Assembly (NCBI RefSeq): GCF_021202945.1 | Contig: NZ_JAJOYR010000001.1 | Coordinates: 62,001 to 126,000, forward strand | Origin: Stenotrophomonas sp. SY1 | GTDB lineage: Bacteria > Pseudomonadota > Gammaproteobacteria > Xanthomonadales > Xanthomonadaceae | Reading direction: 5' to 3' | Length of the DNA: 64,000 nt | In this document: one piece after another, positions 7,549-36,000 of the stretch | Numbering within the stretch: position 1 is the first letter of the stretch | Layout of the letters: every line of letters starts with the position of its first letter | Notes under the pieces: generated by a model | What the model saw: the letters and a program-made list of their open reading frames with translations, nothing else | Told to the model about the DNA's origin: nothing | Databases searched by the model: none | Program-made: the position numbers and the translations under genes

Positions 7549-7576
7549 CGTAATACCCAAGTCATGACGCGACTGG

Positions 7577-15853: not shown

Positions 15854-16090
15854 ATGCCTACCCCGATCAAGGGCCGCGGTGCCACCAGTCACCTTGCCGG
15901 CCGCTTTGAAACCCAGATTGCCGAAGCCGTCGATGACGGCTGGTACGCCGATGAGAGCGAGGAATTCGCCGCTCCACGGCTGCGCACCGACGTGCGCCCG
16001 GAAACCGCGCGCAGCATCATCAGCCGCAACAACTCGCCGGACGTGGGCTTCAGCCAATCGGTCAATCCGTACCGGGGCTGTGAGCATGGT
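15854..16090 (+). pseudogene. PA0069-family radical SAM gene, 5' fragment
   Basis: The first 79 codons of the host gene for a PA0069-family radical SAM protein. They run from MPTPIKGRGATSHLAGRFET to NPYRGCEHG and are then lost. The reading frame continues only four more codons (Thr-Asn-Leu-Pro) to a stop at 16103. The complete island copy has Cys83, Cys87 and Cys90 as its CxxxCxxC iron-sulphur motif, so this fragment retains only the first of the three cysteines. The matching 3' part is 19.6 kb away at 35683. Base composition is host-like (high GC) up to the break and drops sharply after it. Confidence 0.9.
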
Positions 16091-16097
16091 ACGAACC

Positions 16098-16117
16098 TAC
16101 CGTAATTGCTTACGGTA
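16098..16117. repeat. Perfect inverted repeat at the island's left end
   Basis: TACCGTAA-TTGC-TTACGGTA, with 8-bp perfect arms, begins 8 bases inside the left boundary. It may be part of the recombination or end-binding site of the element. A right-end partner could not be found, consistent with the inferred deletion there. Confidence 0.55.
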
Positions 16118-16282
16118 AAAACGTTTAAAAAACAATAGGATATGAAATTATTGTGAGCAAATAACGGCAGTGGTGCGGGCTTTAGGCTTATGCACCCTCC
16201 GCCCTGGGGGGCCCTCGACCTGCATGCAGAGGCATGGCATTTGTGATCCCTCTCCTGAACACAAGTCAGTTGCGTTGCCTGA

Positions 16283-16302
16283 AATTAGTAATAATACTAA
16301 TT
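16283..16302. promoter_or_regulatory. Palindrome upstream of the island radical SAM gene
   Basis: AATTAGTA-ATAA-TACTAATT, with 8-bp perfect arms in an AT-rich stretch, ends 25 bases before the start codon. It suits an operator or promoter element. The rest of the 16106-16327 gap shows no gene. Confidence 0.45.
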
Positions 16303-16327
16303 AAGTGAAAGCTACTCTGAGATCGGC

Positions 16328-17419
16328 ATGGACGAGGATGCATACAAGGCCCAGGCACCGATAAAGGGGCGCGGCGCTGCCAGTCATATAGCGGGTAGGT
16401 TCGAAAGCACGACCAAGATTGGGATCGATGACGGCTGGCAATCGGCTTACGAGGCTTTGAACGAACGACCACGCTTGCGCACCGAGGTGACTGAAGAGCG
16501 TGCCCGAAAGGTGATTAGCCGGAATGATTCGCCGGATGTGGGATTCAGTGCTTCGGTCAATCCGTATCGAGGCTGCGAACACGGATGCGTTTACTGTTTT
16601 GCGCGGCCTTCGCATGCGTATCTTAATCTCTCACCAGGCTTGGACTTCGAAACAAGGCTATTCGCCAAGATCAATGCTGCCGAACGGTTACGCCATGAAT
16701 TGAGCCGACCAAGTTACAAATGCACCCCAATCGCGCTGGGCATCAATACGGACAGCTATCAACCCATAGAGAGGAGTTATCACATTACGCGTCAATGCCT
16801 TGAACTTCTCGCAGAAGCCCAGCATCCAGTGAGTTTTGTGACAAAAGGTGCGCTCATTACTCGCGACATCGACCTTTTAGCTAGCATGGCTCAGAAGCGT
16901 TTGGTGTCGGTCTACTTCTCGGTCACTACATTGGACCCCAAGCTCTCTGCAAAACTTGAACCACGAGCAGCTGCACCGCATGCGCGATTAAGGGCGATGG
17001 AAGCCCTTCATAAGGCCGGTGTACCCGTTGGAGTGTTAGTGGCCCCGGTCATTCCATGCATCAACGACAATGAAATGGAAGCAATTCTTGAGACTGCCTA
17101 TGCTCGGGGGGCAAGAGCAGCAGGCTACGTGTTATTGAGGCTTCCTAATGAGGTCAAAGAGATATGGAGAGAATGGCTCGAACTGCATTATCCGGATAGG
17201 GTTGACCATGTGATGAGTCTAATGCGACAACTGCATGGAGGTCAGGAGTATGACTCGTCCTTCGGCGCGAGAATGCGTGGTAAGGGGGCATTGGCGGAGC
17301 TAATTGCTCAACGTTTCGCGAAGAAGCACCGACAACTCGGATACGGAAGGCTACCACCCCTGACGACCGCACTCTTTCAGCCTCCAACGGAGCGGTCTCC
17401 GCAAGGTCAGCTTTTCTAA
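16328..17419 (+). CDS. PA0069-family radical SAM protein, intact island copy
   Basis: A 363-residue radical SAM enzyme related to SplB-like/PA0069 proteins of unknown substrate. The cluster motif is Cys83-EHG-Cys87-VY-Cys90. Conserved segments include PIKGRGAASHIAGRF near the start, NPYRGCEHG, VSFVTKGALITRDIDLL and YVLLRLPNEV. It is clearly homologous over its whole length to the disrupted host gene but diverged in sequence and lower in GC. It therefore came with the island rather than by local duplication. It presumably supplies the function lost by the insertion. The start is the ATG at 16328. Confidence 0.9.
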   Translation: MDEDAYKAQAPIKGRGAASHIAGRFESTTKIGIDDGWQSAYEALNERPRLRTEVTEERARKVISRNDSPDVGFSASVNPYRGCEHGCVYCFARPSHAYLNLSPGLDFETRLFAKINAAERLRHELSRPSYKCTPIALGINTDSYQPIERSYHITRQCLELLAEAQHPVSFVTKGALITRDIDLLASMAQKRLVSVYFSVTTLDPKLSAKLEPRAAAPHARLRAMEALHKAGVPVGVLVAPVIPCINDNEMEAILETAYARGARAAGYVLLRLPNEVKEIWREWLELHYPDRVDHVMSLMRQLHGGQEYDSSFGARMRGKGALAELIAQRFAKKHRQLGYGRLPPLTTALFQPPTERSPQGQLF

Positions 17420-17539
17420 CGTTTTGCGCCCTGCCCACTATTTTGGTGCGACTGCTATGTTCTTGTAATGGCGCTACTTAGTAAATTGAATAGTGGGTGG
17501 AGCCTAAGTTGCTCATACCGGAAAAGAAGAAGGAGGGTC

Positions 17540-18370
17540 ATGATGGACGACATGGAAATCTTCCGTATCCGAAACTTGGTGCTTGATGATGTAGATCTTC
17601 AACTAACAAGAACAGATAACTATCAAGTCGCCAGATATAAAATGTTTTTGGGTATTAAGAACAACATCCCGAGTCCCATGATGGCGCCGTATCACAAATC
17701 CTTTGGATCGAGGGATAGTATTCCGGGAGTAGCGATGGCGTTTGATAACGCTCTTTCCAGGGCCCTGGTAGAAATACCAAACCAGATCAATGCTTTTGGG
17801 GGAGTGATACAAAAGCTTGAAGCTTGGAGTGTGACAATTCATGGTCTTGATGTTGAACAAGTCTTCATGCTTGCATCAGAGCACTTCGAGCCACTTGCCA
17901 ATCTCGCAATTTCAGCAACGCAGGCAATTCGTGGTCAGATTATTTACGCGACTGTCGAATGCGCTGCCCTCATAAGAGGCGCGAATGGTGAAAACCCCGG
18001 TTGGAATGGTTTCGACCATGTCAGCATGAAGGTCGCGAAGTCTCTAGCTGGCGCGTGGAGAGGTTGGCCAGACTTGGCAGAGAAATTGAGAGTTCTAGAG
18101 GTTGAGGGACTCAATGAAGCAAGTGGGAATTTTCGTAATAATTTCCAGCATGGCGCGCCTCGGCAACTCGTTGTTGGGCTAACAAAGCACACCGAGTGGG
18201 TGAAGAAGGATGACGGAACGTTTGCATGGGGAATTGGAACTAAGCAGCCGATTACGCTTAGGGAAATTATTCCTCATTTGAAGAGTGCACACGACAATCT
18301 ATTGCAGGCACTAGAATCATTTGTTCGGCTCGCTGGGGAGTGGGAGGCCTCATTTCCAAATCAGAAATGA
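17540..18370 (+). CDS. HEPN-like protein of unknown function
   Basis: A 276-residue protein, mostly helical and without signal peptide or membrane segment. The start at 17540 is supported by AGGAGGG eight to nine bases upstream. Residues 199-204 read RNNFQH, which fits the RNxxxH/Rx4-6H active-site signature of HEPN ribonucleases. The surrounding helix (NEASGNFRNNFQHGAP) resembles that of Cthe_2314-like HEPN proteins, which occur in toxin and phage-defence contexts. It is low in GC and lies 120 bases behind the island radical SAM gene on the same strand. No antitoxin-like partner is adjacent. Family assignment rests on one motif, so treat it as a candidate. The 258 bases after it hold only a small hairpin (18585-18602). 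Confidence 0.6.
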   Translation: MMDDMEIFRIRNLVLDDVDLQLTRTDNYQVARYKMFLGIKNNIPSPMMAPYHKSFGSRDSIPGVAMAFDNALSRALVEIPNQINAFGGVIQKLEAWSVTIHGLDVEQVFMLASEHFEPLANLAISATQAIRGQIIYATVECAALIRGANGENPGWNGFDHVSMKVAKSLAGAWRGWPDLAEKLRVLEVEGLNEASGNFRNNFQHGAPRQLVVGLTKHTEWVKKDDGTFAWGIGTKQPITLREIIPHLKSAHDNLLQALESFVRLAGEWEASFPNQK

Positions 18371-19099: not shown

Positions 19100-19232
19100 G
19101 AAATTTTCCCAGCGATGATCCGATCAATGCCTAGCAAAGAACCAGATTGGCGTGAATGCGTTTGAGCATGGGAATAAAAATATAGCAATTCAACGGACCC
19201 ATGTGCCATAAAAACATGGCATAGGATCAAGT

Positions 19233-20282
19233 CTAGGCCATCTGTTGGATGTGTTGCTGGATAACCGGAAGGATTGCGGAAGCGTCATTGCCGACCCCAC
19301 GAAGCGTTGCGGAAGCGAAGTTTCGTTGCAGCGGAATTCCTAGGTAGAAGAGACCAGCGACAGAAGAAGATGCGCCATGGTGTTGGTGAATATGTCCGTT
19401 GTCGTCGAGTGCCGGTGTACCCTCCAAAAATGGCGCGTTGAATCGATATCCTGTCGCATAGATGATGGAATCAACCCGTTGGCACTCGCCATCTGGCCAG
19501 ATGACACTGTCCTTCGAGATCTCTTTGAACATCTGTCGCCTTCGTAGTGCACCAGTGCGAATCGCTGCTCTGTAGCGCCCGTCATCAAGTACAGGTGTGC
19601 TTTGATCACTCAACCAGCTGGAGCGTTCAAGTCGCGACCACTTGAGCCAGTCATGAAAGTCCAAGCCGAGAATCCGTTGGGGAGCGAACCTGATTCGCTC
19701 GCGCGTCGCGAGAGTAACGTCGGCAACTGCGGATAGTTCATATGCGATCTGTACCGCTGAGTTGGCCGCCCCAACGACGACGACTCGCTTGCCATGGAAG
19801 GGTTCGGTGTTGCGGTAGCTCGCACTGTGCAGAATCTCACCGCAAAACTTGGCTGTACCCGCGACGTCAGGCACGTAGGGGGCGTTGAACCCGCCGGACG
19901 CGACGACGATCGCCCCTGCCGATATGGGCGGTCCATTGCGGAGACACACAAGATGCCTATCCGTACCGAACTCAATGCGCTCGACTTCTGAACGAACTTG
20001 AATTGGCAGTCCGAACTTTCGTGCGTAGTCCCGCAGATACTGAACAACGTCGTCCCTTCGAGGGTAGCGCTTGCCGCCACCAGGGAACGGATAGCCCGGG
20101 AGGGATGAGTGTCGGGCCGGCGAGAAAAGGGTGAGGCTGTCGTAGTACGAAGGCCAACTGCCTCCTGGCGCCTCCTGCTTTTCCACGACGATATGCGGGA
20201 TGCCGCTCCCCTTCAGGTGATAGGACATGGCCAGGCCGGCCTGCCCGGCTCCCACGACGACAACGTCAGTCTGAATTTGCAT
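19233..20282 (-). CDS. ArsO-type flavin-containing monooxygenase
   Basis: A 349-residue FAD/NAD(P)H-dependent monooxygenase. The FAD-binding motif VVVVGAGQAG is at residues ~8-17. The LTLFSPARHSSLPG and YPRRDDVVQYLRDY segments are those of the ArsO/CzcO-like group. A second Rossmann motif reads GAANSA near residue 170 instead of the usual GxGNSG. It lies 63 bases after an ArsR regulator on the same strand and probably forms a two-gene arsR-monooxygenase operon. The reaction is unknown; a role with organoarsenicals or arsenite is inferred from context. A second, more typical ArsO is at 31907. Confidence 0.75.
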   Translation of the reverse strand: MQIQTDVVVVGAGQAGLAMSYHLKGSGIPHIVVEKQEAPGGSWPSYYDSLTLFSPARHSSLPGYPFPGGGKRYPRRDDVVQYLRDYARKFGLPIQVRSEVERIEFGTDRHLVCLRNGPPISAGAIVVASGGFNAPYVPDVAGTAKFCGEILHSASYRNTEPFHGKRVVVVGAANSAVQIAYELSAVADVTLATRERIRFAPQRILGLDFHDWLKWSRLERSSWLSDQSTPVLDDGRYRAAIRTGALRRRQMFKEISKDSVIWPDGECQRVDSIIYATGYRFNAPFLEGTPALDDNGHIHQHHGASSSVAGLFYLGIPLQRNFASATLRGVGNDASAILPVIQQHIQQMA

Positions 20283-20295
20283 GCGTATGTGCGCC

Positions 20296-20307
20296 TATAT
20301 GCATATA
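20296..20307. promoter_or_regulatory. Palindrome before the monooxygenase start
   Basis: TATATGCATATA, perfect 12-base palindrome, 13 bases upstream of the monooxygenase start codon. It shares the ATATGC/GCATAT core with the palindrome before the adjacent arsR, so both may be bound by that ArsR. Confidence 0.45.
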
Positions 20308-20345
20308 TTCGAGCAACACCCAGTCGCTCCGCCAGTGGTTGGGTG

Positions 20346-20693
20346 TTAGGGGGTGTTAGTAGAACAGCAGTAGGGAGCGATGGCCTTTACCTGCTGCAGG
20401 ATTTGCTCCAAGCGAGTAACTACTGCTGGCCCGTCAACTTGGTAGAAGACTTGGCGGCTGACGCGCTCCGCTCGGAGGATTCCGGCATCGTGCAGGGCTT
20501 GGAGATGGCGAGAAACCACGGACCGCTCCTGGGGCAGAGCCGATGCAATTTCGGCGATGTCGGCCCTTCCGATCTGAAGCACCCGTTGGAGCACAGCCAA
20601 GCGCGATGGCTCTGACAGGGCCCGGAAGATTGGGTCTGCCAGCACCGTCATGGCGTTCTCGATCGCGGATGTTCTGCTCTCTCCAGCATTCAT
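20346..20693 (-). CDS. ArsR family metalloregulator
   Basis: A 115-residue winged-helix repressor using the start at 20693; an in-frame ATG at 20714 would add seven residues but overlaps the likely operator. The helix-turn-helix is near residues 41-65 (IAEIASALPQERSVVSRHL). There is no CxC motif in the recognition helix. A Cys-Cys pair near the C-terminus (YCCSTNTP) resembles the As(III) site of the Acidithiobacillus-type ArsR. It heads an operon with the flavin monooxygenase and diverges from the PhoU-like gene. Confidence 0.85.
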   Translation of the reverse strand: MNAGESRTSAIENAMTVLADPIFRALSEPSRLAVLQRVLQIGRADIAEIASALPQERSVVSRHLQALHDAGILRAERVSRQVFYQVDGPAVVTRLEQILQQVKAIAPYCCSTNTP

Positions 20694-20700
20694 GTCGAGA

Positions 20701-20710
20701 GCATATATGC
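20701..20710. promoter_or_regulatory. Candidate ArsR operator
   Basis: GCATATATGC, perfect palindrome, directly upstream of the arsR start and followed by a repeated TGCACATTCATGCACATTC stretch. It is located where a repressor would block arsR transcription and possibly the divergent PhoU-like gene. Confidence 0.5.
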
Positions 20711-20863
20711 ACATTCATGCACATTCAATATGGGGCTCTGGATCGACTGCCACGGCACCGCGGCTGCCCACGGACCACGAGGGTCTATCAGGGCCTTTCA
20801 CCCGCCCATTACAGCTCTCGGCTCACGATTTTTGCTGTCAGGCTCTTGAGTCCGGAGACGGCC

Positions 20864-21517
20864 ATGAACGAGCAGACCGATACCTCGTTGAACGCGGAAC
20901 TGAAGTCGGTTGAGCAACAGGTCGTCGCTCTTGGCCGATTGGTTGAGCAGCAGCTGGCGGATGTTCTCTGGATACTGAATCACCCAAATCGAGCATTGAA
21001 GCAGCAAATTTACGACCAGCTGGTTCGGCAGGAAAAGGCCGCCGAAGACTGTGAGTTGGAGCTGATCAGCATCGTCGCCCGTCATCCAGCGGACATCATG
21101 GATCTGCGCCACGTGCTTGCGGCATTTCGGATAGTTTCTGACCTGAAGCAGGCGGGAAGGCTGTCATCTTCTATCGCGCAGCATCTTCTCGAAATGTCTC
21201 CTGACCGGCAGGATGAAGATACTGCGGGATCACTTCATGAGATGGTTGATCTCGCTCAGATCCAGTTGCGCGACGCGTGTCGTGCCTTTGAAACTAGGGA
21301 CCTACAGCATGCACGACGGGCGCTAGCACACGGTGATGCAATCTCATCGCTGCAATCGATTTTGTTCAAGGAAATATTGCAAGGTATCGCCGAAGACCAC
21401 GATTCCCCAGTGGATCTCGTTAACTTGCTCTACGTGGTAAAGAACATAGAGAAGATCAGTGACCACGCGACTTCAATAGCGTCGAGCTTGATCTCGCTTT
21501 GCGATGCTGACGCCTGA
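20864..21517 (+). CDS. PhoU-like protein
   Basis: A 217-residue all-helical protein with two PhoU-type three-helix units. Each contains an E/DxxxD-type metal-binding helix (for example VARHPADIMDLRHVLAAFRI and VVKNIEKISDHATSIASS). PhoU normally modulates phosphate uptake and signalling. Here it stands alone, without pst or phoB genes, among arsenic genes. The likely link is that arsenate enters through phosphate transporters, but that is inference. GGAGAC precedes the start. Confidence 0.82.
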   Translation: MNEQTDTSLNAELKSVEQQVVALGRLVEQQLADVLWILNHPNRALKQQIYDQLVRQEKAAEDCELELISIVARHPADIMDLRHVLAAFRIVSDLKQAGRLSSSIAQHLLEMSPDRQDEDTAGSLHEMVDLAQIQLRDACRAFETRDLQHARRALAHGDAISSLQSILFKEILQGIAEDHDSPVDLVNLLYVVKNIEKISDHATSIASSLISLCDADA

Positions 21518-21533
21518 AGGTCAGGTGGTCCTC

Positions 21534-21992
21534 CTAACTTTGGAGTGTTGGATTCACCGTAAGACTCTTGTGCATTACTGCACATGTGCTCGGACACAAG
21601 TGAGCGAACTGTTGCGTGGCGCGGACGGCCGCCGGAACGTTGGCTCTATGGATGTGGGAGAAGCCGCTGCGCTCGAAGAGCCCAGCGGCCGTAGTTGTTA
21701 GGAGATAGAGATCTTCAATGCCAGCCTTGCGTGCGAACTCTTCTGCATGCCAGATGAGCGCTCGGCCGTAACCACCTCCGCAAAATTCCGGGCGTACCGC
21801 GAGTGAGCGCAGTAGCCCCGTACTGCCGTGATTCTCGATAGCAATCACGCCCAGGAGCCCTCGTTCATCGAGTGCCCCATAGAAGCGAACAGCCAGCGCA
21901 CCAGCAGTGAGATCTTGCGTGGGAAGGTCTGCTGCAGTCAGTAATGAAAGAACGTCAGAATCCAGCACTATTTCGCGAAACGAAGGGCTCAT
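21534..21992 (-). CDS. arsN2: ArsN2-type GNAT N-acetyltransferase
   Basis: A 152-residue GCN5-related acetyltransferase of the ArsN2 group found in ars clusters. The acetyl-CoA site is seen as LAVRPEFCGGGYGRALI near residues 67-83. The YLLTTTAAGLFERSGF segment near residue 100 is typical. Substrate is uncertain; some ArsN proteins acetylate arsinothricin or related compounds, but this was not shown for ArsN2 as far as I know. The ATG at 21992 is preferred over an in-frame TTG four codons upstream. Confidence 0.8.
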   Translation of the reverse strand: MSPSFREIVLDSDVLSLLTAADLPTQDLTAGALAVRFYGALDERGLLGVIAIENHGSTGLLRSLAVRPEFCGGGYGRALIWHAEEFARKAGIEDLYLLTTTAAGLFERSGFSHIHRANVPAAVRATQQFAHLCPSTCAVMHKSLTVNPTLQS

Positions 21993-22206
21993 AGCAGTTA
22001 CCAATCTGCCTATGTATTGAGGACTGGGTTAGCTTCGGCATCATGTTACATCCAGCTAGTGAGCTGGATACCGCCATCAAATGGGTCGGGCAGAAGCCGC
22101 AAGAAATTGGAACTTTTGTTAGTTCCAAGATCTTCAAACCGGTGGCCGCCTCCGGCAAGAAGCGGACATCAAGACGACTACGACTCTGTCGCTCTTAGTA
22201 CAAAAC

Positions 22207-22307
22207 GCCAATCAACTGGACGCCCTGCGCCAAATAAACTGGACACTAACGGCAAGCAATTCGGACAACAGCGCCATATAAACTGGCCATCGGCATCAGA
22301 CTGGACA
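22207..22307. repeat. Cluster of five ~16-bp repeats at 22-bp spacing, left arm
   Basis: Copies of a GCCAAATAAACTGGACA-like sequence start at 22207, 22229, 22251, 22273 and 22292, exactly 22 bp apart for the first four. The best match is at 22229. The 22251 and 22292 copies are degenerate. The same repeat occurs in inverted orientation at 24218, so the two clusters bracket the CPBP and DUF3011 genes. The 377-base gap 21993-22368 holds nothing else recognisable. Confidence 0.75.
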
Positions 22308-22368
22308 TCTGTCACGGTCGCCACTCTCTTCCCACATCCAAGTACTTCGGCTGCCAGCGACCCCTTAT

Positions 22369-23097
22369 TCAATGCAAACGCATATGGGCGAACACGGCAA
22401 GCGCCATGCCCATCAAATCATTGACGACATGCGTGATCGTGGAGGCCCAGATATTCCGAGTCAGGATATACACACCCGTCAGGACCAAGCGCGCCGCGCC
22501 GATCACTAGCAACGCCTGTCCGAAGTTCCAGCCATAGGTGGGCAGGTGCAAGGCGCCAAACGCGAGCGCGGTGGCTATCCACGATATGCCGAGCGCCAAC
22601 CGCAGCTTCACACCAGTACGATGCAGGATCGTCAGCAACACCAGAAACGGCAGGATGGTCACCAGTTCCTCGCCGAGCAGTTGCACAGACGACACAGCCA
22701 TCGCATTTGCCACCTGTGCTGGCGGCATCACACCGATGGCTTGGATGCTGGTGTTGGCTACAAGATTGGCTCCATCCATCAGGATGTAAGCGACCCCCCC
22801 TGGCACGATGACCATCAGCGGCACGCAGGCCAAGGCAATCCCTAGCTCACGTAGCCTGGGCCGCCGGAAGATGGCTTTCCATGCCGGCCCGACCGCCAGC
22901 GCAAGCCCGGCAAGTTGCAGCACGACGAACGAGATCGCCGCTACCCAGCCGCCGGCCACGCCGGGGACGAGGTGCGGCAATGTCAGCAGCGCCGCGAAAC
23001 CCGCGGCGCACGCGGCCAGGACCAACAGGCAGCCGGCTTTGCTCAACGGCGCCGGATGGCCCTGATAATAAGGAAAATCCTGCGTCTCGTTTCGCAT
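22369..23097 (-). CDS. CPBP-family membrane protein with altered active site
   Basis: A 242-residue, very hydrophobic protein with about eight membrane segments. CPBP motifs are recognisable: LLGEELVTILPF (about residue 142), FGALHLPTY (about 177) and HVVND (about 226). However, the first motif is EExxxI rather than EExxxR, so activity may differ from the typical protease. It follows the DUF3011 gene by 9 bases on the same strand, forming a two-gene operon inside the repeat-bracketed segment. Confidence 0.75.
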   Translation of the reverse strand: MRNETQDFPYYQGHPAPLSKAGCLLVLAACAAGFAALLTLPHLVPGVAGGWVAAISFVVLQLAGLALAVGPAWKAIFRRPRLRELGIALACVPLMVIVPGGVAYILMDGANLVANTSIQAIGVMPPAQVANAMAVSSVQLLGEELVTILPFLVLLTILHRTGVKLRLALGISWIATALAFGALHLPTYGWNFGQALLVIGAARLVLTGVYILTRNIWASTITHVVNDLMGMALAVFAHMRLH

Positions 23098-23106
23098 CGA
23101 TTGCGG

Positions 23107-23880
23107 TTACTTTCCGCGAATACGGGTCAGCGATTGCACCAGGCCGTCGTTGCGCACCATGCACAAGAAGCGGCCGTCCGGATAGTCGATGATCAACTCG
23201 GTAACCTGGTCGTTGACCGGAACACGGGTGACCAGCGCGCCATCCGCGTTTGCCCGCACATTGCAGGCCCCCAGCAGCTCGCCAGCCACGCCCATGCCGA
23301 CAGCAGCGGCCGGCCGGTACGACGAATGCCCCGAATGCCCCCTGTCGGCATTACTGAAGACCGCGCGGCAACCATCCTTGACCCAGACGGAGTGACGGGA
23401 AAGGCCCCAGTTTTCGTTCTGCACGCATTCGGTGTGGCTCAACTGGCGAACCAGCCGGACGTCGCCACGCGTGTCCATGTCGCATTCGGTTTGTCCATTG
23501 CCGACCGATTCACAAGTCACTTCGCGCGCATCGCCGCCGGCCGATGCTGTCCTGGCAGGACGTATTGCACCGACCGTGCAGACGCCGTTTGCGCCGTGCT
23601 TGTCGGCGTAGGACACCTGCGTTTCGTCATCGGGCGAGCGGGTAATCGACAGCGTTACACCGCTAATGGAATCGCTGGCTTCGTAGTAGTCATCGTTGAA
23701 GCGCTTGAGCCGGGTTTCCTGCCCGTTAACATAGACCAGACCGCCTTGGTCTGCGTGGATCTCGAGGTTGCCCGGGCACGTACCATTGAACATTGGGATG
23801 GCCGCGCTGGCTTGCGGCACCATGGACAGCCCCGCGAACAGCGCGACAGTGGTCGTAAAAAGGAACGGCATTTTTTCCAT
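23107..23880 (-). CDS. Secreted DUF3011-type protein
   Basis: A 257-residue protein with a Sec signal peptide (residues 1 to about 26, ending ASA). The central region, CESVGNGQTECDMDTRG (about residues 121-137) through CRAVF (about 171-175), has the cysteine-spaced pattern of DUF3011, a domain of unknown function in secreted proteins. It has additional Cys residues likely to form disulphides and a C-terminal VTELIIDYPDGRFLCMV segment. An alternative start lies three codons downstream. First gene of the pair with the CPBP protein. Upstream, 23881-24217 shows no gene. Confidence 0.75.
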   Translation of the reverse strand: MEKMPFLFTTTVALFAGLSMVPQASAAIPMFNGTCPGNLEIHADQGGLVYVNGQETRLKRFNDDYYEASDSISGVTLSITRSPDDETQVSYADKHGANGVCTVGAIRPARTASAGGDAREVTCESVGNGQTECDMDTRGDVRLVRQLSHTECVQNENWGLSRHSVWVKDGCRAVFSNADRGHSGHSSYRPAAAVGMGVAGELLGACNVRANADGALVTRVPVNDQVTELIIDYPDGRFLCMVRNDGLVQSLTRIRGK

Positions 23881-24217
23881 ATATAGCCCCCGGCAGTGTG
23901 TGAGGCGAAAATCCTAACATCAGACTGTTGGGCCTGGAGAATGCATTGCGAGTGTCTACTCTATGCCTGCATTTAACCCACCATCGAGCGCTCTGGTGTA
24001 AGTCTGCTTTCGGCCGTCTTCGGCCTGTGGCCGGCTACTGATCAAGATGCTTATTTGCAGATCATGATCCGTCGATGTTACTGATCAACCCCATCGATGT
24101 TCACACCAATTGTGCTCCATCAGCTTGTCCGTTCCATTGCGTCTCAATCCCTACCCGAATTGGCTAGTCTTGCAGCGAGACCGAAGTCCATCAGCGATGC
24201 GTCCAATCTGGCGCTGC

Positions 24218-24277
24218 TGTCCAGTTCATTTGGCTGCCGTGTCCAGTTCATTTGGTGGCGCTGTCCATATGCTTGGC
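24218..24277. repeat. Cluster of three 22-bp-spaced repeats, right arm
   Basis: TGTCCAGTTCATTTGGC-like copies start at 24218, 24240 and 24262, exactly 22 bp apart, with a further weak copy near 24200. They are the reverse complement of the left cluster at 22207. The array runs into the 3' end of the CDF transporter gene, whose stop codon (24248-24250) lies inside a repeat. This indicates that the bracketed segment inserted there. Confidence 0.75.
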
Positions 24278-24901: not shown

Positions 24902-25000
24902 TCACCGTTTAGAGGGGCAGCAGCGCGCTTTGCGCTGCCATAGGCCGCTGCTCCACGTCGTCAGAGTCGCGGGTTGATTTCAAGCCAAGAAGGCGTTATC

Positions 25001-25025
25001 AACCCTCTAGCCACTACAAGGTCAA
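25001..25025 (-). promoter_or_regulatory. MerR-type operator/promoter for the CDF gene
   Basis: On the minus strand this reads TTGACC followed by TTGTAGTGGCTAGAGGGTT. It is the long-spacer promoter with an ACCTTGTAG...CTAGAGGGT dyad typical of ZntR/CadR/PbrR sites. It ends 3 bases before the merR start and points to the CDF transporter. Confidence 0.75.
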
Positions 25026-25028
25026 GCA

Positions 25029-25445: not shown

Positions 25446-25469
25446 GGTTCTCCCGTTGGCACATCCAGG

Positions 25470-25501
25470 TTGACCTTGTAGTCGCTCCAACGTTTACAAG
25501 G
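25470..25501 (+). promoter_or_regulatory. MerR-type operator/promoter for the TonB receptor
   Basis: TTGACCTTGTAGTCGCTCC begins at 25470 and shares 16 of its first 17 bases with the site before the CDF gene. It also forms a CCTTGTA / TACAAGG dyad (25474-25480 and 25495-25501). It lies 24 bases after merR and 45 before the receptor start. Confidence 0.65.
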
Positions 25502-25546
25502 GAGCTCCTATTCGGCCGATATCGGCGAAGCTACTGAGAGCCCTTG

Positions 25547-27544: not shown

Positions 27545-27782
27545 AATCCGCGCGGGTGAAGAATGGCATGTTCGCTTCGGGTCGCATGGCACCCTACGAT
27601 CTCATGTAGGTATGGTGACAGAACCATTTGGTTCTACTGCCCAGAATGCTTGGCGGTGGTGTCCGGCTTGTCTGGCGATCAGCGCCAAGTGGTTGGCGTT
27701 CTACATCATGTGATCGAATGCGGGAATTCCTCACTATGGATGGAGCCCGCATCCGATGATGCCGTGCGTTGTTTGATGCTGC

Positions 27783-28202
27783 TTAGATCACGCGCTTGCC
27801 GTTCTGGTCAATCACTGCTTCCCCATCTTCCTTGCTGAAGGGAGCATTGATCGACGGCAGGATGTCCAAGACAACCTCCGAGGGCCGACAAAGTCGAGTA
27901 CCCAGATCAGTCTGCACTAACGGACGATTGATCAGTATGGGATGGCTCATCATGGCATCCAGGAGCTGATCATCCGTGAGTTCGGCACTCTCAAGGCCGA
28001 GCTCAGCGTATGGGGTCCCTTTCTGACGGATAGCTTCTCGCACGCTCAGGCCTGCAGCGCCGATCAGTTCAATCAGTCGGCTGCGGCTAGGCGGTGTTTC
28101 GAGGTAGAGGATCACTTCCGGTTCTATGCCAGCAAGACGAATCATCGCCAGCGTGTTGCGCGATGTTCCGCAATCGGGATTGTGATAGATGACGGCCTTC
28201 AT
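27783..28202 (-). CDS. arsC: Arsenate reductase, glutaredoxin-dependent
   Basis: A 139-residue ArsC/ArsC-like reductase that converts As(V) to As(III) with glutathione and glutaredoxin. The catalytic Cys is in [12 protein letters not shown] (Cys11), and the substrate-binding Arg is in LINRPLV near residue 92. Length fits the plasmid R773-type family. The start overlaps the arsH stop by 4 bases, so arsH-arsC are co-translated. The 238 bases between the TonB receptor and this gene show no feature. Confidence 0.95.
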
Positions 28203-28936
28203 GCACTTTCCTCTTCATTCAATGCCTCAACCGCGCCGGCAGCGGCGGCCAGTGCCGCGGCTTCCACCGCACCCTTGCGTTCGCTGTAGCGATCAACAAG
28301 GTAGTCGCTTCGTCCGCGAACGAGCAGCGTGAACTTGATCAGCTCTTCCATGACATCCACAACTCGATCGTAGTAAGGAGAGGGCTTCATGCGGCCGTTC
28401 TCATCGAACTCTTGCCATGCCTTGGGAACCGATGACTGGTTCGGAATGGCCACCATGCGCATCCAGCGGCCCAAGACGCGCAGGCTATTGACCACGTTGA
28501 ATGACTGAGAGCCGCCGCACACCTGCATTACCGCCAAGGTTCTTCCTTGTGTCGGCCGCACGCTCCCCTCTTCCAGCGGCAGCCAGTCAATCTGATTCTT
28601 GAACACGGCGGTCAACGTACCGTGGCGCTCGGGGCTGACCCATACCTGGCCCTCGGACCACAACGATGCCTCACGGAGCTCCTGAACCTTCGGATGACTC
28701 GATGGCACGGAATCAAGCATCGGCAGCTCGTGGGGATCAAATAGGCGTGTTTCCGCGCCTAGGTGCTCCAGAAGGCGCTGGGCTTCCAGCGCCAACTTGC
28801 GGCTGAACGACTGCGGTCGGAGCGAGCCATACAAGATGAGGATTCGGGGGCGATGGCTAGCTACGCTTGAGTCGTTAAGGGATGCGGCGGTAGGGGCGGT
28901 CAATGCCCCCGGAGTCACATTGGGAAGATTGCTCAT
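28199..28936 (-). CDS. arsH: ArsH NADPH-dependent FMN reductase
   Basis: A 245-residue flavoprotein that oxidises trivalent organoarsenicals in characterised members. The flavodoxin-like phosphate loop [19 protein letters not shown] (about residues 34-52) and the conserved [19 protein letters not shown] are present. It diverges from arsR across 39 bases that hold one operator, so it is likely de-repressed together with the arsR operon. Confidence 0.95.
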
Positions 28937-28957
28937 GGGGTTGTCCTGCGATGTTTA

Positions 28958-28981
28958 TTCCATTATTCTAGAAGCATGGAA
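28958..28981. promoter_or_regulatory. ArsR operator between arsH and arsR
   Basis: TTCCAT-N12-ATGGAA, with an inner TTCTAGAA palindrome at 28966-28973. It fills most of the 39-base divergent gap and overlaps the arsR start codon. Confidence 0.6.
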
Positions 28982-29290
28982 CATAAAAACGCAACCCAGG
29001 CCTTGGCCGCACTTGGCCACTCGACCCGCCTATCCATCTTCCGTTTGCTGGTGCAAGCGGGCGGAGGGGGGAAGCTCGCTGGCGACATCGCGCAGGCGCT
29101 TTCATTGCCAGGCGCCACTCTTTCCTTCCATCTGAAGGAGTTGATGGCAGCTGGGCTGATCAACTCAGAACAACGGGGTAGGAGCGTTTGTTACCGAGCT
29201 GAGTTTCAGGCGATGAATTCTCTGATTGGCTATCTCACAGAAAACTGTTGCGCCGGCGAGCAATCGTGTGAGCGTCCCGACGGCTGCTAA
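28976..29290 (+). CDS. arsR: ArsR arsenite-responsive repressor
   Basis: A 104-residue winged-helix repressor. The recognition region is near residues 36-62 (ALSLPGATLSFHLKELMAAG). The sensor is a C-terminal Cys91-Cys92-x5-Cys98 arrangement, the same spacing as the As(III) site Cys95/Cys96/Cys102 of Acidithiobacillus ferrooxidans ArsR. It is the first gene of arsR-arsC-acr3-trxB-arsO. The start codon overlaps the operator, which suggests a very short or absent leader. Confidence 0.93.
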   Translation: MEHKNATQALAALGHSTRLSIFRLLVQAGGGGKLAGDIAQALSLPGATLSFHLKELMAAGLINSEQRGRSVCYRAEFQAMNSLIGYLTENCCAGEQSCERPDGC

Positions 29291-29315
29291 CTTCTCAATC
29301 GCATAGGTCGAACAT

Positions 29316-29807
29316 ATGACTCGTCGTGTCTTGTTTTTGTGCACTGGCAACTCCGCGCGTAGCGTGCTTGCCGAATCGACTTTGAGAAAGTGGGGCGAAG
29401 GTCGCTACGAATCCTTCAGTGCTGGGAGCCAGCCCGCAGGGCGAGTGAATCCCTTCGCGATTGCCCAACTGGAGCGCGAGGGATTCCCCACTGATGGTCT
29501 TCGAAGCAAGTCATGGGATGAGTTCGCACAGGACGACTCTTCGCTCATGGATCTCATTGTGACCGTGTGTGATAGCGCGGCTGCGGAATCGTGTCCTGTG
29601 GTCTTTGGGGATTTCGTGCGCGTGCATTGGGGGCTGTTCGACCCGGCAGGTGTTGAGGGTTCGGATGAGCAGAAGGCCGAGGCGTTCGATCGTGCGCATC
29701 AAATCATCAAGGCACGCTTGAAGGCTTTTCTTGAGATTCCCGACAGTGCTTGGGGCGATCGTCAATCGCTTAAAGCCGAGCTCGAACCGATCGCGCAGAT
29801 CGATTGA
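29316..29807 (+). CDS. arsC: Arsenate reductase, low-molecular-weight phosphatase type
   Basis: A 163-residue ArsC of the thioredoxin/LMW-phosphatase fold. The P-loop FLCTGNSARS (catalytic Cys10) is near the N-terminus. The later LIVTVCDSAAAESCP (about residues 84-98) contains the second and third cysteines used in the disulphide relay. Being thioredoxin-linked, it fits the trxB gene two positions downstream. It lies 25 bases after arsR and 21 before acr3. Confidence 0.93.
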   Translation: MTRRVLFLCTGNSARSVLAESTLRKWGEGRYESFSAGSQPAGRVNPFAIAQLEREGFPTDGLRSKSWDEFAQDDSSLMDLIVTVCDSAAAESCPVVFGDFVRVHWGLFDPAGVEGSDEQKAEAFDRAHQIIKARLKAFLEIPDSAWGDRQSLKAELEPIAQID

Positions 29808-29828
29808 CTGAAATTTCGGAAGATATAG

Positions 29829-30887
29829 ATGACCACTGAAAATTCTCGCCTGTCCTTTCTAGACAGGTATCTGACGCTGTGGATCTTCGCGGCGATGGCT
29901 CTCGGAGTTGGTATGGGCGCCATGTTCGATGGACTGCCAACAGCGCTCAACAGTCTGTCGATTGGATCAACGAACGTTCCGATCGCGATCGGCCTGATCC
30001 TCATGATGTATCCGCCACTGGCCAAGGTGAAGTATGAAGAGCTGCCGAAGGTCTTCTCGGATAAGCGTGTACTTCTCCTTTCGTTGCTACAGAACTGGGT
30101 TGTCGGACCATTCCTGATGTTTGGTCTGGCGGTGTTGTTCCTGCGCGACTACCCCGAGTACATGACCGGTCTGATACTGATTGGCTTGGCGCGTTGCATT
30201 GCGATGGTGCTCGTTTGGAATCAGTTGGCGCGCGGTGACGGCCAATACGTGGCGGGACTGGTGGCCTTCAACTCGATCTTCCAGATTGCATTGTTCAGCG
30301 TCTACGCCTGGTTCTTCCTCTCATGGCTGCCGCAGCTGTTTGGCCTACAGGGCAGCGTTATCGATGTCAGCTTCTGGACCATTGCCGAGGCGGTACTTAT
30401 CTACCTGGGCATTCCATTCCTGGCTGGCTTTCTCACGAGTCGCTGGCTAAAGGCGCGAAAGGGTGTTCGCTGGTACGAAGAGAAGTTCTTGCCGGCAATC
30501 AGCCCGATCACGTTGGCTGCCCTGCTGTTCACCATCGTTGCCATGTTCAGCCTCAAGGGCGGCGACGTATTGCGAATCCCGATGGATGCACTGCGCATTG
30601 CGGTGCCTTTGACCCTCTATTTCATCATCCAGTTTGTCCTTAGCTTCTTCATGGGACGGTTGATTGCCAAGGATTACCCCCGCACCACGGCTATCGCATT
30701 CACTGCTGCAGGCAACAACTTCGAGCTGGCAATCGCCGTGGCTATTGCAGCGTTCGGCCTGGCGTCGCCAGTTGCGTTCGCGGCGGTGATCGGTCCGCTG
30801 GTCGAGGTGCCGGTTCTTGTACTCCTTGTCCATGTTGCGTTGCGCCTTGGGAAGCGTTACTTCCCCGCCGATTTCCGGAGTGCCTAA
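29829..30887 (+). CDS. acr3: ACR3 family arsenite efflux transporter
   Basis: A 352-residue inner-membrane protein with about ten helices that exports As(III) using the membrane potential. The conserved helix-4 motif [13 protein letters not shown] (about residues 119-131) with its essential Cys is present, as is [18 protein letters not shown] near residue 290. Length and motifs are of the ACR3 rather than the ArsB family. Three bases separate it from trxB. Confidence 0.95.
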
Positions 30888-31877
<990 letters not shown>

Positions 31878-31906
31878 CGCTGCGTCAAGGTTCTAGGAGG
31901 CACAGC

Positions 31907-32980
31907 ATGCAGGATGTTGATGTGGTGGTAATCGGAGGGGGGCAGGCGGGACTATCCGCCGGATACTTCCTTCGCCGATCTGGAATGTCCTTCGAAATTC
32001 TGGATGCTGAGGCAGAGTCCGGAGGCGCCTGGCAGCATGCCTGGGAGTCGCTGCACCTGTTCTCGCCCGCAAGCTGGAGCTCCATTCCGGGCTGGCCGAT
32101 GCCCGCGAGCAAGCAAACCTACCCGATGCGCTCAGAAGTGCTGAACTATCTGCGAGAGTATGAGCGCAGATATGAACTTCCTGTTGTCCGGCCAGTTCGT
32201 GTGACTCGTATAGCCCGATCAGGCGAGAAGCTCGCCGTTGAAGCGAGTGACGGACGTGTTTGGCTAGCCAAGGCTGTTATCAATGCAACCGGGACTTGGA
32301 GTCAGCCGTATCTCCCCTTCTATGAAGGAGTCGACAAGTTTGATGGGCTTCAGGTCCACTCAGCGAACTACGTCAACGCACAGCCATACGTTGGGAAGCG
32401 AGTCGCGATAGTAGGCGGCGGAAACTCCGGCGCACAGATTCTGGCCGAAGTTTCCACGGTTGCAGACACAACCTGGATTACGCAGCGAGAACCAGAGTTC
32501 TTGCCGGACGAAGTGGATGGTCGCGTTCTCTTTGAAAGAGCCACGGAAAAATGGCGGGCCCAGCAGGAAGGGCGGGAGCCAAATGTGCCGGAAGGCGGCT
32601 TCGGAGATATTGTCATGATCCCTTCGGTGAGAGATGCGAGAACACGCGGTGTACTGGGTTCGATACGGCCCCCGACACGCTTCACCGAAGCGGGCATGCA
32701 ATGGGACGACGGTACCGTCCGCGAATTCGACGCTGTGATCTGGTGCACGGGGTTTCGAGCAGCTCTTGCTCATCTGAGCGAACTAGGAGTGGTCGACGAT
32801 CAGGGACTCATTGATGTTGACGAGTCCAGAGTTAGATCACGCCTTGTTCCTTCTATCTGGCTGCTCGGCTATGGCGACTGGAACGGGGCTGCATCCGCAA
32901 CCCTCGTAGGGGTGACACGGTATGCGCGAGAGGTAGTGAGCCAAGTTAGCTCGTACGTCGCTGAGGCCTCCCCCGCATAG
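31907..32980 (+). CDS. arsO: ArsO flavin-containing monooxygenase
   Basis: A 357-residue FAD/NAD(P)H monooxygenase of the ArsO family. FAD motif VVVIGGGQAGLSAGY (residues ~6-20), the HLFSPASWSSIPGWPMP segment, NADPH motif VAIVGGGNSGAQIL (about residue 165) and the WCTGFR block are all intact. It is the last gene of the arsR operon, 29 bases after trxB. The chemical role is not established; context implies oxidation of an arsenic species or relief of associated stress. A GCCTCCC/GGGAGGC hairpin (32966-32988) follows or spans the stop. Confidence 0.9.
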   Translation: MQDVDVVVIGGGQAGLSAGYFLRRSGMSFEILDAEAESGGAWQHAWESLHLFSPASWSSIPGWPMPASKQTYPMRSEVLNYLREYERRYELPVVRPVRVTRIARSGEKLAVEASDGRVWLAKAVINATGTWSQPYLPFYEGVDKFDGLQVHSANYVNAQPYVGKRVAIVGGGNSGAQILAEVSTVADTTWITQREPEFLPDEVDGRVLFERATEKWRAQQEGREPNVPEGGFGDIVMIPSVRDARTRGVLGSIRPPTRFTEAGMQWDDGTVREFDAVIWCTGFRAALAHLSELGVVDDQGLIDVDESRVRSRLVPSIWLLGYGDWNGAASATLVGVTRYAREVVSQVSSYVAEASPA

Positions 32981-33015
32981 AGGGAGGCTCACCAGCGTCG
33001 GTTTCAACGCCGCGG

Positions 33016-33507
33016 CTATACGGGATTGGCGAGCCTACGTGCCGCAGCGTGTAAGGCCATGCGATCGAGTGCCTCTGGCTTCAATGCCAACAGAAGCGCG
33101 ATACGGTGCTGTAGTTCGCGCAGGGCATTCTGAAACGCCCGATGCATTTGCTCGTCATTGCCTTGGACCAGAGCAGGATCCTCCACTCCCCAATGTGCCG
33201 TGGCCGGATGACCAGGCCATGCCGGACATGCTTCGCCTGCTGCTCGATCACAGACCGTGACGATGAGGTCCATATGAGGCGCAGTTGGTGCTGAAAACGC
33301 TTCCCAAGGCTTGCTATTGGCCCCAGAGGCGTCGATTCCGACTTCGGAAAGCACCCGCAGGGCCATCGGATGCACCTCGCCTTTGGGATGGCTCCCAGCG
33401 CTGTAGCCGGACAGCCTCCTTCCACCCAGGTGGTTCACCAGCGCCTCGGCGAGGATGCTGCGAGCAGAGTTACCAGTGCAGAGGAACAGGACGTTCAACT
33501 GGGACAT
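33016..33507 (-). CDS. arsC: Arsenate reductase, LMW phosphatase type, second copy
   Basis: A 163-residue paralogue of the ArsC at 29316. P-loop FLCTGNSARS and LIVTVCDRAAGEACP are conserved, but the rest diverges, with an extra C-terminal KPEALDRMALHAAARRLANPV tail. It is convergent with arsO and monocistronic on present evidence. It makes three arsenate reductases in the island, of two unrelated folds. Confidence 0.92.
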   Translation of the reverse strand: MSQLNVLFLCTGNSARSILAEALVNHLGGRRLSGYSAGSHPKGEVHPMALRVLSEVGIDASGANSKPWEAFSAPTAPHMDLIVTVCDRAAGEACPAWPGHPATAHWGVEDPALVQGNDEQMHRAFQNALRELQHRIALLLALKPEALDRMALHAAARRLANPV

Positions 33508-34863
33508 ATGAATTAACTACGTTTCCGGAATAGTGGAAGTATTGTCCGGGGGTGTTGCAGTTTGATGACGGTAGAAGTGCAGGCTGTTGAGTAGAACTAG
33601 ACATCTGCGCTCCCAATTGCTCTTCCGTTCGACAACGCGCTCGGATGCTTTGCCCTTTCCGCGAACCAATGCGGTGATTTCCCGATTATTGGTCTTCTGT
33701 GCCTGTCGTACTTTGCTCGGAGCAGCACGGGATGAGACCGTCCCTGAATGACGGCGCAGATCGCTGAAGACCTCCGACGACCAATCTGCGCCCGTGCCAC
33801 GTGGCACTGAATCGGGAAGTGCCATGCAGAATTGGAGTGAGAGGTGCCCAGTCCTGCGGGTGCCCTCTACGCAGCTGCTTCATTCCAGTGCCACGTGGCA
33901 CTGAGTTCCAAGAGCGCTTCTGACACTCGCGCGATTATCCGAGGGCCTGTCGGGGGGCAAGGCCAAGGGCAAGGCCAAGGCCCAGGCCTTGGACTCCAGT
34001 GCCACGTGGCACTGGAGTCCAAGAGCGTCCGACACCTGCACGATCATCCGAGGGTCTGTCCGGTCAGTAGGGCGCGGGCCTTGGACTTCAGTGCCACGTG
34101 GCACTGGGCCTGAGCGGCTCGTCAGCGGCTCGTCTCTTTCTGGCATGACCGCCGTCAAACAACCACCAGCAACCCATACCGGCCTGCGCCACTCGGAACA
34201 GGATCAATGTGACGAGTTCCAATCAGAAAGTTCGATAGCCATAGGGCGCCATGAACTAAATAGCTCTCAAGCCAAGTAACTATGCGCGGATCGCCCATCA
34301 ATACGTAGCCACACTCGCGCGAAGCATCTTGTCTAGAACAACGGCAGATGAAGAATCCTGCGATAGATCGAGTCGCTTGAGTACAAGGTCGCGGCGGCAT
34401 GAGAAAAGCGCACACGCCGGAGCCTCGAGTACTAGGCTTGAAAATAGTGCCGGCGTCAGTCTTGGGTAGCTAGTCAGAAACAACTCGCAACATGCATAAC
34501 CCATGACTTGGCGCAGGCATATCTTCCAAACATAAGACTTCGAAATCTTGTTGAAGGGCAAGGCGTTCGTCCGTGCCAATGAGCTTCCGTATCGGAATTT
34601 CTGGAAGGTTCTCGGAGTATCAACGTCTTGATTGCTGTTGTCCTAGGGAGAACGGCCCTGACCTTTCAGCGTTGGTACTGGTCGATTCGGTGGTCGCAGT
34701 CCACCGCTGTTCATTCAGTGCGATCTTCTCTGCTTATCATCTCCAGCTAAACGGACGTCGAAGCGGAGACACATTCTTGGGCGAGCGAGCTCTGGATGTT
34801 GACGCCGTCGAGGACGCGCTTTCGCTGCTGCTTTAGCGCGGCCAGCGTTGACTGATCTGATGG
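33508..34863. other. Long non-coding or decayed segment of the island
   Basis: About 1.36 kb without a gene I can identify. 33517-33825 (minus) encodes a basic 102-residue open frame, 34298-34579 (minus) a 93-residue one and 34573-34836 (plus) an 87-residue one. None matches a family I recognise, and at least the first begins within a repeat. The most definite content is the palindrome cluster at 33794-34106. The segment may be remnants of genes lost when the island's right end decayed. Confidence 0.5.
33794..34106. repeat. Four GTGCCACGTGGCAC palindromes in about 300 bp
   Basis: Palindrome centres lie at about 33800, 33894, 34005 and 34097. The third is a 36-bp perfect palindrome (33988-34023). 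The two central copies are followed by related sequence (CCAAGAGCG...GATTATCCGAGGGCCTGTC and the like), so about 100 bp is duplicated, not just the core. A short AAGGCC/AAGGGC tandem repeat lies at 33960-33985. Confidence 0.8.
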
Positions 34864-35664
34864 CTATGTGCCGCTTCGAGTCCACGCATGCAGATGTGGT
34901 TGCAGATCCAGAGGAAGCGAAGCGGCGAACTCGTCGTCAATCGGAAAGTGGGGCATATACCGATCTACTAGCGAGAGTACCGACATGCCCAGCTCGCGAT
35001 CCCATTCCCTCTTGTGCGCATCATGTTTGGGGTCATGGGAAAGCCAGAGCCTATGCATGGCGAACCAGCGAGGATCTGGTGCGACGATGCGTGCGGGGAG
35101 GCCATCCAGCCCGCAGGCGATGCGACTGATCCAGTTCCCCGGCAATAGCCAGCCGTGTTCCGGAAGAGGCAATGGCCTCAGCCTCTCCCGGGCAGTGATC
35201 GGTACTAGGGATTCGGCCACTAGCAGCTCAACTTGGTTGCCTACGGAGTTGGCCGCCTGGAAGTTCTTCTTCGAGTTGATGGCGAAAGTGCTGTCGATTT
35301 GTTTGAGAACCCCAAGCACTGACGAGGCTTCCAATGGAAGAGGATCGGTGGTGGCATCGCGAACCCAGCCCAGAACAACGCTCTTCTTCGCTGTCAGCCG
35401 GCTGTCCATCAAATGGCCGGCCTCCAGCGCGTAGGCACACAAGGCGTAACTGTCGACAACGATGACCGTGCTCCCCAGCAGTTGGGAGACATCCAGCTCG
35501 CGCAGTATTGCTGCGCCGTAGGAGGCTATACAAGGCAAGCGCAGAGCGCGGTAGACCCTCCCATCCTTCTTGAGCGTCCGCCAAGTACGTTCCACGGTGG
35601 AGCGGGCAATCTGATATTCCTCCATCAAGGTCTCAGTTGCTTCACTTCGGGGGCCGAGTGAGAT
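34864..35664 (-). pseudogene. GSU2403-type nucleotidyltransferase-fold gene, 5' end lost
   Basis: About 267 codons on the minus strand, from ISLGPRSEATETLMEEYQ to the stop. Features of the GSU2403 family are the LGP near the start, LLGSTVIVVDSYALCAYALEAG, PLEASSVLGVLKQIDSTFA, VGNQVELLVAE and IVAPDPRWFAMHRLWLS. Full-length members have about 50 more N-terminal residues, which are missing because sequence at 35665-35683 switches to the host radical SAM gene. An internal ATG at 35625 might still allow expression of about 253 residues. The family's function is not established. Confidence 0.65.
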
Positions 35665-35682
35665 GCCGCTCGTGTTGCGTCC

Positions 35683-36000
35683 CACTACGTGCTGCTGCGC
35701 CTGCCTTACGAAGTGGCACCGCTGTTCCGCGACTGGTTGCAGGCACATTATCCACAGCGCGCCGAGCACGTGATGAGCACCATCAACCAGCTGCGCGGCG
35801 GCAAGGATTACGACAGCCAGTTCGGCAAGCGCATGCGTGGCGAAGGTGCGTACGCGGACCTGCTGTCCAACCGTTTCAGGCTGGCCAGCAAGCGCTTGGA
35901 GTTCAACGCATCTCGCCAGCAATGGCCCTGGTTGGATTGCAGCAAGTTCGTCGCGCCATTGCCGCCAAAGAAACCTTCAGCGCAGGGTGAGTTGTTCTAG
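35683..36000 (+). pseudogene. PA0069-family radical SAM gene, 3' fragment
   Basis: The last 105 or so codons of the host gene, from HYVLLRLPYEV to PSAQGELF and the stop, in the host's high-GC codon use. They align with residues ~266-363 of the intact island copy (YVLLRLPNEV...SPQGQLF). The 5' fragment ends at the equivalent of residue 86, so about 180 codons are absent from both fragments. No ribosome-binding site or plausible start precedes it. Confidence 0.9.

Follow-up and report, generated by a model that had tools for sequence, protein, structure and literature searches.

An immobilised remnant of a probable site-specific element family that breaks a PA0069-family radical SAM gene and brings a divergent replacement

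The window analysed here is a 64,000-nt stretch (G000:C1:62001-126000) of a carrier genome, G000, which appears from its relatives to be Stenotrophomonas-like. It contains an island inside a gene for a PA0069-family radical S-adenosylmethionine (SAM) enzyme, and the island carries a full-length, divergent gene for the same enzyme. Our best explanation, which we hold with good confidence, is that the island comes from a family of site-specific elements of the GInt/SE kind that rescue the gene they break, and that the window holds an immobilised remnant. We infer the movement and the rescue; comparison of genomes gives the insertion site, the core, a recombination module, the replacement copies, a conserved block upstream of them and the selection acting on them.

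The 5' fragment of the host gene (15854-16089, plus strand) ends within the Gly codon of RGCEHG, codon 79, which is split GG-T. Its last six nucleotides, GCATGG (16084-16089, plus strand), form the left attachment (attL) core, of host type in a comparison of 20 carriers. The left end of the element follows (16090-16115, plus strand), at a position identical to the left ends of 19 other elements; about 17 nt inside it the window has TGCTTA, and many other elements have TGTTCA or a near variant. A promoter-like block with the dyad TTAGT...ACTAA (16270-16300, plus strand) lies just 5' of the replacement gene (16328-17419, plus strand). This gene encodes 363 residues with the cluster motif intact (GCEHGCVYC, a CxxxCxxC motif), matches PF04055, scores 505 bits against NF033668 (cut-off 360) and belongs to the clade called R1 below. 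GC content drops at the break, from 58-70% in the left flank to 49-54% between 16 and 20 kb. An earlier reading of the sequence alone, the original prediction, had described an intact, divergent, lower-GC gene for the same protein just inside the left end, and this is what we find.

The original prediction also held that the host gene stops after codon 79 and that its 3' end returns downstream. Both pieces are present, the 3' remnant at 35685-36000 (plus strand; blastn against intact hosts starts at 35685 and tblastn covers residues 261-363), but they are not contiguous. In replacement numbering, by tblastn, the 5' piece ends at about residue 87 and the 3' piece begins at about 261, so about 174 host codons and the original right junction (attR) have been deleted. 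The two pieces share 62% (5' piece, over replacement residues 9-87) and 52% of residues with the window copy. A tblastn search of the window island (E up to 1e-4), with a relative's four module proteins as queries, gave no matches. The reading of the island as an element stands, but what the window holds is a remnant with neither recombinase nor right end.

Of the 21 carriers we identified, attL could be read in 20 (not in G033) and attR in 19 (not in G000 or G033); 14 of the attR sites were located by script, and those of G351, G359, G399, G447 and G820 were read directly. At all 20 readable left and all 19 readable right junctions the element enters at the same base, within the Gly codon that lies between the cluster cysteines, in line with the predicted site-specific element that targets the PA0069 gene. 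The attL core is GCAYGG in 18 of 20 cases, ACATGG in G351 and GTGTTG in G007, and the element end after each begins with T. All 19 attR cores read DTRYTG ([G/A/T]T[G/A][C/T]TG), followed by the next host codons. Most ends carry TGTTCA or a close variant on the inside, giving imperfect inverted repeats. The consensus of the unoccupied site (attB), GGNTGYGA-GCAYGG-NTGY, represents the codons between the cysteines of the [4Fe-4S] cluster. Only in G007 does attL have the element-type core, a pattern consistent with mismatch repair of the heteroduplex, from a 6-nt stagger, in the other direction. In other genera the same breakpoint base is used by elements whose recombinase proteins have identities of only 26-44% with those of the Stenotrophomonas element. 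An artefact of assembly or annotation, or one old rearrangement peculiar to a single strain, would suit the irregular right end of the window and its host pieces that do not abut, but we give it practically no credence given the identical left base in 20 genomes, including the single-contig assemblies G005 and G088.

All 91 Stenotrophomonas-type genomes in our genus survey hold one full or nearly full-length PA0069 gene. Eleven of them (G000, G004, G005, G007, G009, G017, G033, G046, G054, G076 and G088) combine a damaged host gene with a full foreign copy, which is 75-81% identical to the window copy (100% in G000 itself). Each of the ten other genus carriers has a 5' host fragment; in nine this ends at the left base seen in the window, and nine show the right breakpoint. 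G033 shows neither breakpoint: its host piece ends earlier, and a 3' piece was not found in it. All 80 element-free genomes keep one full or nearly full-length host-type gene, contrary to the possibility that island-free relatives also lack an intact host gene, and a second full copy occurs in none of them. A second partial gene in G050 was ruled out as a carrier copy, being a host-type local duplicate, and G048 gave an additional weak and unrelated match.

The family survey covered 395 genomes. We followed up 31 of the 32 other-genus genomes that had at least two matches among the matches listed (G392 was left out), together with G385; genomes with single partial matches, such as G130, were left out. 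This added at least seven split genes (G307, G312, G350, G351, G359, G399 and G447). A profile search of genome contigs with an alignment of the 690-residue module protein described below, using strict peptide patterns, returned 13 loci, ten of them in genomes already known as carriers. The three new loci, in Rhodanobacter sp. Soil772, Frateuria sp. Soil773 and a metagenome-assembled genome (MAG), all have a split PA0069 gene and an intact copy. Searches for broken PA0069 genes accompanied by a second copy, as the original prediction had advised, and the profile search together gave the 21 carriers, 19 of them with an intact copy. Ten lie beyond the Stenotrophomonas-type genomes, in Xanthomonas, Pseudoxanthomonas, Rhodanobacter, Frateuria, g29 and the MAG, and the carrier species include Xanthomonas pisi, X. 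nasturtii, Pseudoxanthomonas japonensis, P. suwonensis and S. bentonitica. Across the class, the 690-residue profile gave weak matches in two of 369 genomes, one of them the window's own. The PA0069-type element looks confined, within what was searched, to Xanthomonas-like bacteria and their neighbours. As a separate observation, the sole full PA0069 gene of G289, G410, G441 and G347 (L136, L137, L138 and L140) is of foreign type and adjoins the usual 2-oxoglutarate-oxygenase neighbour, in an orientation other than that in G400.

Aligning left ends defined a common terminus, and the recombinase sought in intact relatives proved to be a four-gene module encoding a tyrosine recombinase of 433 residues, proteins of 613 and 690 residues and a small protein of 161. 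In G005 it lies at 4933-10725 of locus L037, and the order from attL is a minus-strand helix-turn-helix frame (recognised by eye), a 111-residue protein, the replacement gene, a 308-residue protein, a NIF-like phosphatase, the 433-, 613- and 690-residue proteins and the convergent gene for the 161-residue protein. The 433-residue protein has the full recombinase signature and matches the Pfam Phage_integrase and XerC/D models. The 613-residue protein has Asn-Glu-Gln-Pro in place of the first catalytic Arg; the 690-residue protein has Arg at that position, with TG-R-HEL, WR-TFA and H/Y motifs. Both have Cys-rich C-termini and neither has a Pfam match, their fold resting on these motifs; profile matches of the larger proteins are weak, to XerD (E 0.05) and XerA (E 0.63). 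The module comes directly after attL in seven other-genus family carriers, about 2.9 kb from it in Rhodanobacter, and in Stenotrophomonas the replacement gene and small genes stand between. Module proteins had no matches in G000 and G017 and matched only a partial first gene in G054 and G088; all four genomes keep the intact copy. Four-gene recombinase operons of the same layout were also seen on the Methylomonas plasmid pUP202 (L101), between traU and traN and without cargo, and on the Sphingobium plasmid pSES189 (L102).

The original prediction had asked whether the same left end occurs at unrelated sites. All 13 profile-search loci lie in PA0069, as do seven of the eight strong family-level recombinase matches; the eighth, in G385, lies in recJ. 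There were also three weak matches, G000 C18, G024 and G261, the first two adjoining a comM-type gene. The modules at recJ and beside comM mean that the wider recombinase group has other targets. On both counts that could have refuted it, island-free relatives and the sites of left ends, the original prediction came through unrefuted. In G385, where PA0069 is intact, a related module of 429, 634, 722 and 173 residues sits in a recJ-type gene with a DHH domain (L069, G385:C61:332000-351000). The host recJ piece stops after about 290 residues, in what we take to be a conserved motif region, and the frame directly after the small gene encodes a full-length, divergent RecJ with DHH, DHHA1 and OB domains. 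Its identity is 34% with the RecJ of G100 and 41% with the host recJ piece. A search from 332000 to the contig end at 420013 did not find the other (3') half of the host recJ. This pattern comes from the one genome.

On the comM side, a related recombinase operon lies by a truncated comM-type Mg-chelatase gene at L103 (G000:C18:231000-243000) and L105 (G024:C1:4645000-4656000). The open frames measure 218 residues in G000 and 257 in G024, against 534 in G020 and 540 in G008, and the second and third module proteins match their counterparts in the G024 operon with probabilities of 98.7% and 98.3%. By eye, a NIF-like phosphatase was recognised near both loci and a relative of the 111-residue protein near L105. 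The same small genes occur in Stenotrophomonas PA0069 elements and may be standard accessory genes.

The replacement copies are uninterrupted in all 19 cases, and they occupy three layouts. In ten Stenotrophomonas-type carriers with a readable attL the copy stands between attL and the module, or the place of the module; in X. pisi, X. nasturtii and three Pseudoxanthomonas the module comes first and the copy after it; and in the MAG, Rhodanobacter and Frateuria the copy lies on the attR side, inverted. Trees and ratios of nonsynonymous to synonymous substitution rates (dN/dS) were computed on residues 87-363 only, and the later trees and approximately unbiased (AU) tests were run without 13 of the 19 Stenotrophomonas hosts and without both rows of G004, which is identical to G005. 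The AU groups were picked after the tree had been seen, except the grouping of all copies together. In the trees, the host 3' fragments from carriers in Stenotrophomonas, Xanthomonas, Pseudoxanthomonas and g29 fall beside intact hosts of the respective genus, which is not true of the R1 and R2 copies. The copies form four groups: R1 (Stenotrophomonas and X. pisi), R2 (Pseudoxanthomonas and X. nasturtii), R3 (the MAG) and R4 (Rhodanobacter and Frateuria), and the fewest changes on the best tree number four. The AU test rejects a single clade for the 18 copies tested of the 19 (p 0.003), and it rejects R1 with R4 (p 0.0009). At least two separate acquisitions are supported, and the trees suggest that there may have been four. 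A plasmid or phage source for the copy was set aside: all 68 plasmid records compared were less than 60% identical to it, and none of four phage records covered 80% of it.

Among the copies, dN/dS is 0.026-0.105 in nine of 11 pairs, the other two being saturated; the copies are under purifying selection. R1 comprises 12 copies, and in all ten loci compared the block upstream of the gene can be recognised, even though the proteins of the others have only 75-81% identity with that of the window; the block is a putative promoter. A copy might also serve the element and not the host, as a decoy or second attachment site or as a homology arm for spread by recombination. All 18 copies inspected keep the RCAYGG core and several lie near an element end, as such a role would have it. 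We nevertheless regard this role as very improbable: none of the 19 copies has been interrupted, identities as low as those between the window copy and its host pieces would serve homologous recombination poorly, and the low dN/dS points to conservation of the whole reading frame, beyond the site alone.

Several results weigh against rescue by a moving element. In G307 and G312 the gene is split and whole-genome searches found no copy, which means that carriers can do without one, and 71 of the 395 family genomes have no PA0069 match at all; together these indicate that the gene is dispensable in some lineages. The AU test does not reject R1 with R2 (p 0.217) or R1 with R3 (p 0.437), which leaves the number four unproven. 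In the tree the R4 copies cluster with the host pieces of their own two genomes (98/84), on a long branch and with no intact host of their own genera included, which makes a foreign origin of R4 unsure. Low dN/dS is seen in the split 3' host fragments too (in 15 of 19 rows it is no higher than 0.14), and many of the insertions may therefore be recent. The comM-side modules of G000 and G024 gave no second copy of the 223-residue part tested. The two carriers without a copy, the comM-side modules and the variety of the remaining cargo would suit a second gene that is ordinary cargo caught by chance, in the way islands pick up many genes, its identity with the target a coincidence. We think this unlikely, as a copy is present in 19 of 21 carriers and in none of the 80 element-free genus genomes, was acquired separately at least twice and sits in three layouts, is under strong purifying selection, and has a parallel at a second target, the recJ of G385.

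We return to our best explanation, a site-specific element that rescues its target. The module would join the junction of the element's ends, probably in a circular intermediate, to the one attB inside the PA0069 gene. In the product the target core GCAYGG stays at attL and the element core DTRYTG lies at attR, so precise excision would be expected to restore the gene. Insertion truncates the host enzyme, and most members appear to compensate with a full-length foreign copy, which in Stenotrophomonas and X. pisi has its own conserved upstream block and is presumably expressed and functional. In G000 the recombinases would later have disappeared, along with attR and a portion of the native gene, and the element-borne gene would have become the permanent substitute. 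Such an end state is the best reading of the window, with an element unable to leave and its gene the only full one.

The original prediction knew of no described family with this target, and we found neither a PA0069-targeting element nor repeated rescue copies in the open-access literature searched; the machinery is less new, resembling GInt and SE elements. As the accessible text of Bardaji et al. (2017, PMC5385486) describes them, GInts make 6-nt staggered cuts with 3-nt heteroduplexes, and the authors proposed that their outward promoters limit damage. That text gives several likenesses to the PA0069 elements: the first 5.8 kb contain a module of four genes, for a small protein and three tyrosine recombinases or relatives; the cargo varies; each family inserts at a single specific site; the stagger is 6 nt, with a few mismatches; and very different modules share one target (ssb in GInts). 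Intact relatives of the window have the three recombinases or relatives and the small protein, the window itself lacks the module, and comparison of junctions gives the 6-nt core, imperfect attL/attR repeats and the one target site. There are also differences. A radical SAM target and a replacement copy do not appear in the accessible text of PMC5385486, and the first catalytic Arg is absent there from GinC and here from the second protein. The small gene is convergent in many PA0069 elements, and in Stenotrophomonas the module comes after the replacement gene. The gin operon marks one end of a GInt, and among the PA0069 elements the distance of the module from attL varies between genera. This kind of machinery is known, and by description it resembles that of GInts; we do not assign it to GInt.

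SE elements, as far as the consulted sections of a 2023 paper describe them (PMC10214605), share the gene order (a recombinase, a fold protein that lacks a catalytic motif, a large recombinase, then a small protein), as well as imperfect inverted terminal repeats and a 6-nt core. In SE and Tn554, by the same sections, the attR core is a footprint copied from the left flank of the donor; here none of the 19 attR cores is host-type, assuming that the donors also sat in PA0069. Comparison by hhalign with the four-gene set of pAQU1 (one SE, taken as SE-Pda04Ya311) gave probabilities of 13.1% (E 0.002) and 23.8% (E 0.0008) for the corresponding pairs, and swapped pairs gave nothing. We rejected SE membership because the Tfp/IntB sequence relationship is marginal and the attR footprint rule fails. 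A Tn554-related element was rejected as well, the four genes with an Arg-less protein standing against tnpABC without a Tfp counterpart, by the definition in the sections consulted (PMC10214605). Tn552-II, of the Tn554 family, likewise inserts site-specifically, disrupts a gene and has a 'target-gene-like' gene on board, and the sections of PMC12486829 that we consulted say that this gene 'may provide a rescue mechanism'; a suggested rescue role for such a gene is thus already in print. Tn552-II differs in being staphylococcal and in having tnpABC, a 7-bp att and a yolD-like target, and those sections offer no evidence for repeated acquisition or selection. Other islands that target genes, such as those with dusA integrases (PMC4482086), also have a protein-coding target. 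A Tn7-like transposon was set aside on the tyrosine-recombinase module of the relatives, no search having been aimed at Tns/Tni proteins and the literature yielding just an unrelated island, and a tRNA-targeted island because the window has no tRNA.

The rest of the window island is cargo. A reading frame without a Pfam match (17540-18370, plus strand) is followed by a region of metal/arsenic type (19233-33507) whose Pfam matches are FMO-like flavoproteins, ArsR-type regulators, GNAT, PF02517, DUF3011, Cation_efflux, MerR, a TonB receptor, ArsC, FMN reductase, low-molecular-weight phosphatases, an SBF-fold transporter and a pyridine-nucleotide reductase. These families point to a putative role in resistance. 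Between 33794 and 34104 the palindrome GTGCCACGTGGCAC occurs in four perfect copies about 100 bp apart, and it has no exact match elsewhere in the 4.38-Mb genome. A nucleotidyltransferase gene of the NTP_transf_8 family (34864-35684, minus strand; PF12281, E 7e-22) adjoins the right junction, and among the 91 genus genomes it is present in the window's own alone. In the replacement protein (16328-17419), the match to the NCBIfam model of Rv2578c relatives that contain an intein picks up again at residue 90; these model coordinates suggest that the intein of those relatives may sit at nearly the same codon (about 89) as the island.

Many gene-targeting islands have their insertion points at the ends of genes, or leave the reading frame restored, and do not bring a divergent full copy. 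Insertion into a vital part of a gene is expected to be costly, and bringing a replacement is a different solution from targeting gene ends. A broader proposal, on which we are evenly divided, is that GInt-like modules aim at the codons of invariant residues in conserved genes and repeatedly recruit full-length divergent orthologues, at the PA0069 cluster motif at least twice and perhaps four times, and at the recJ motif in one genome. The rescue copy would then hide the cost of insertion, penalise loss of the island and end, as in the window, in permanent displacement of the native gene. If the cluster-motif codons are what is aimed at, it would become understandable that modules whose proteins have identities of only 26-44% use the same target in several genera. 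The comparative set, with its empty sites, carriers with and without a copy and decayed remnants, makes the idea testable. Through the element family, a core gene would have a concrete way of being replaced by a foreign orthologue that does not involve homologous recombination.

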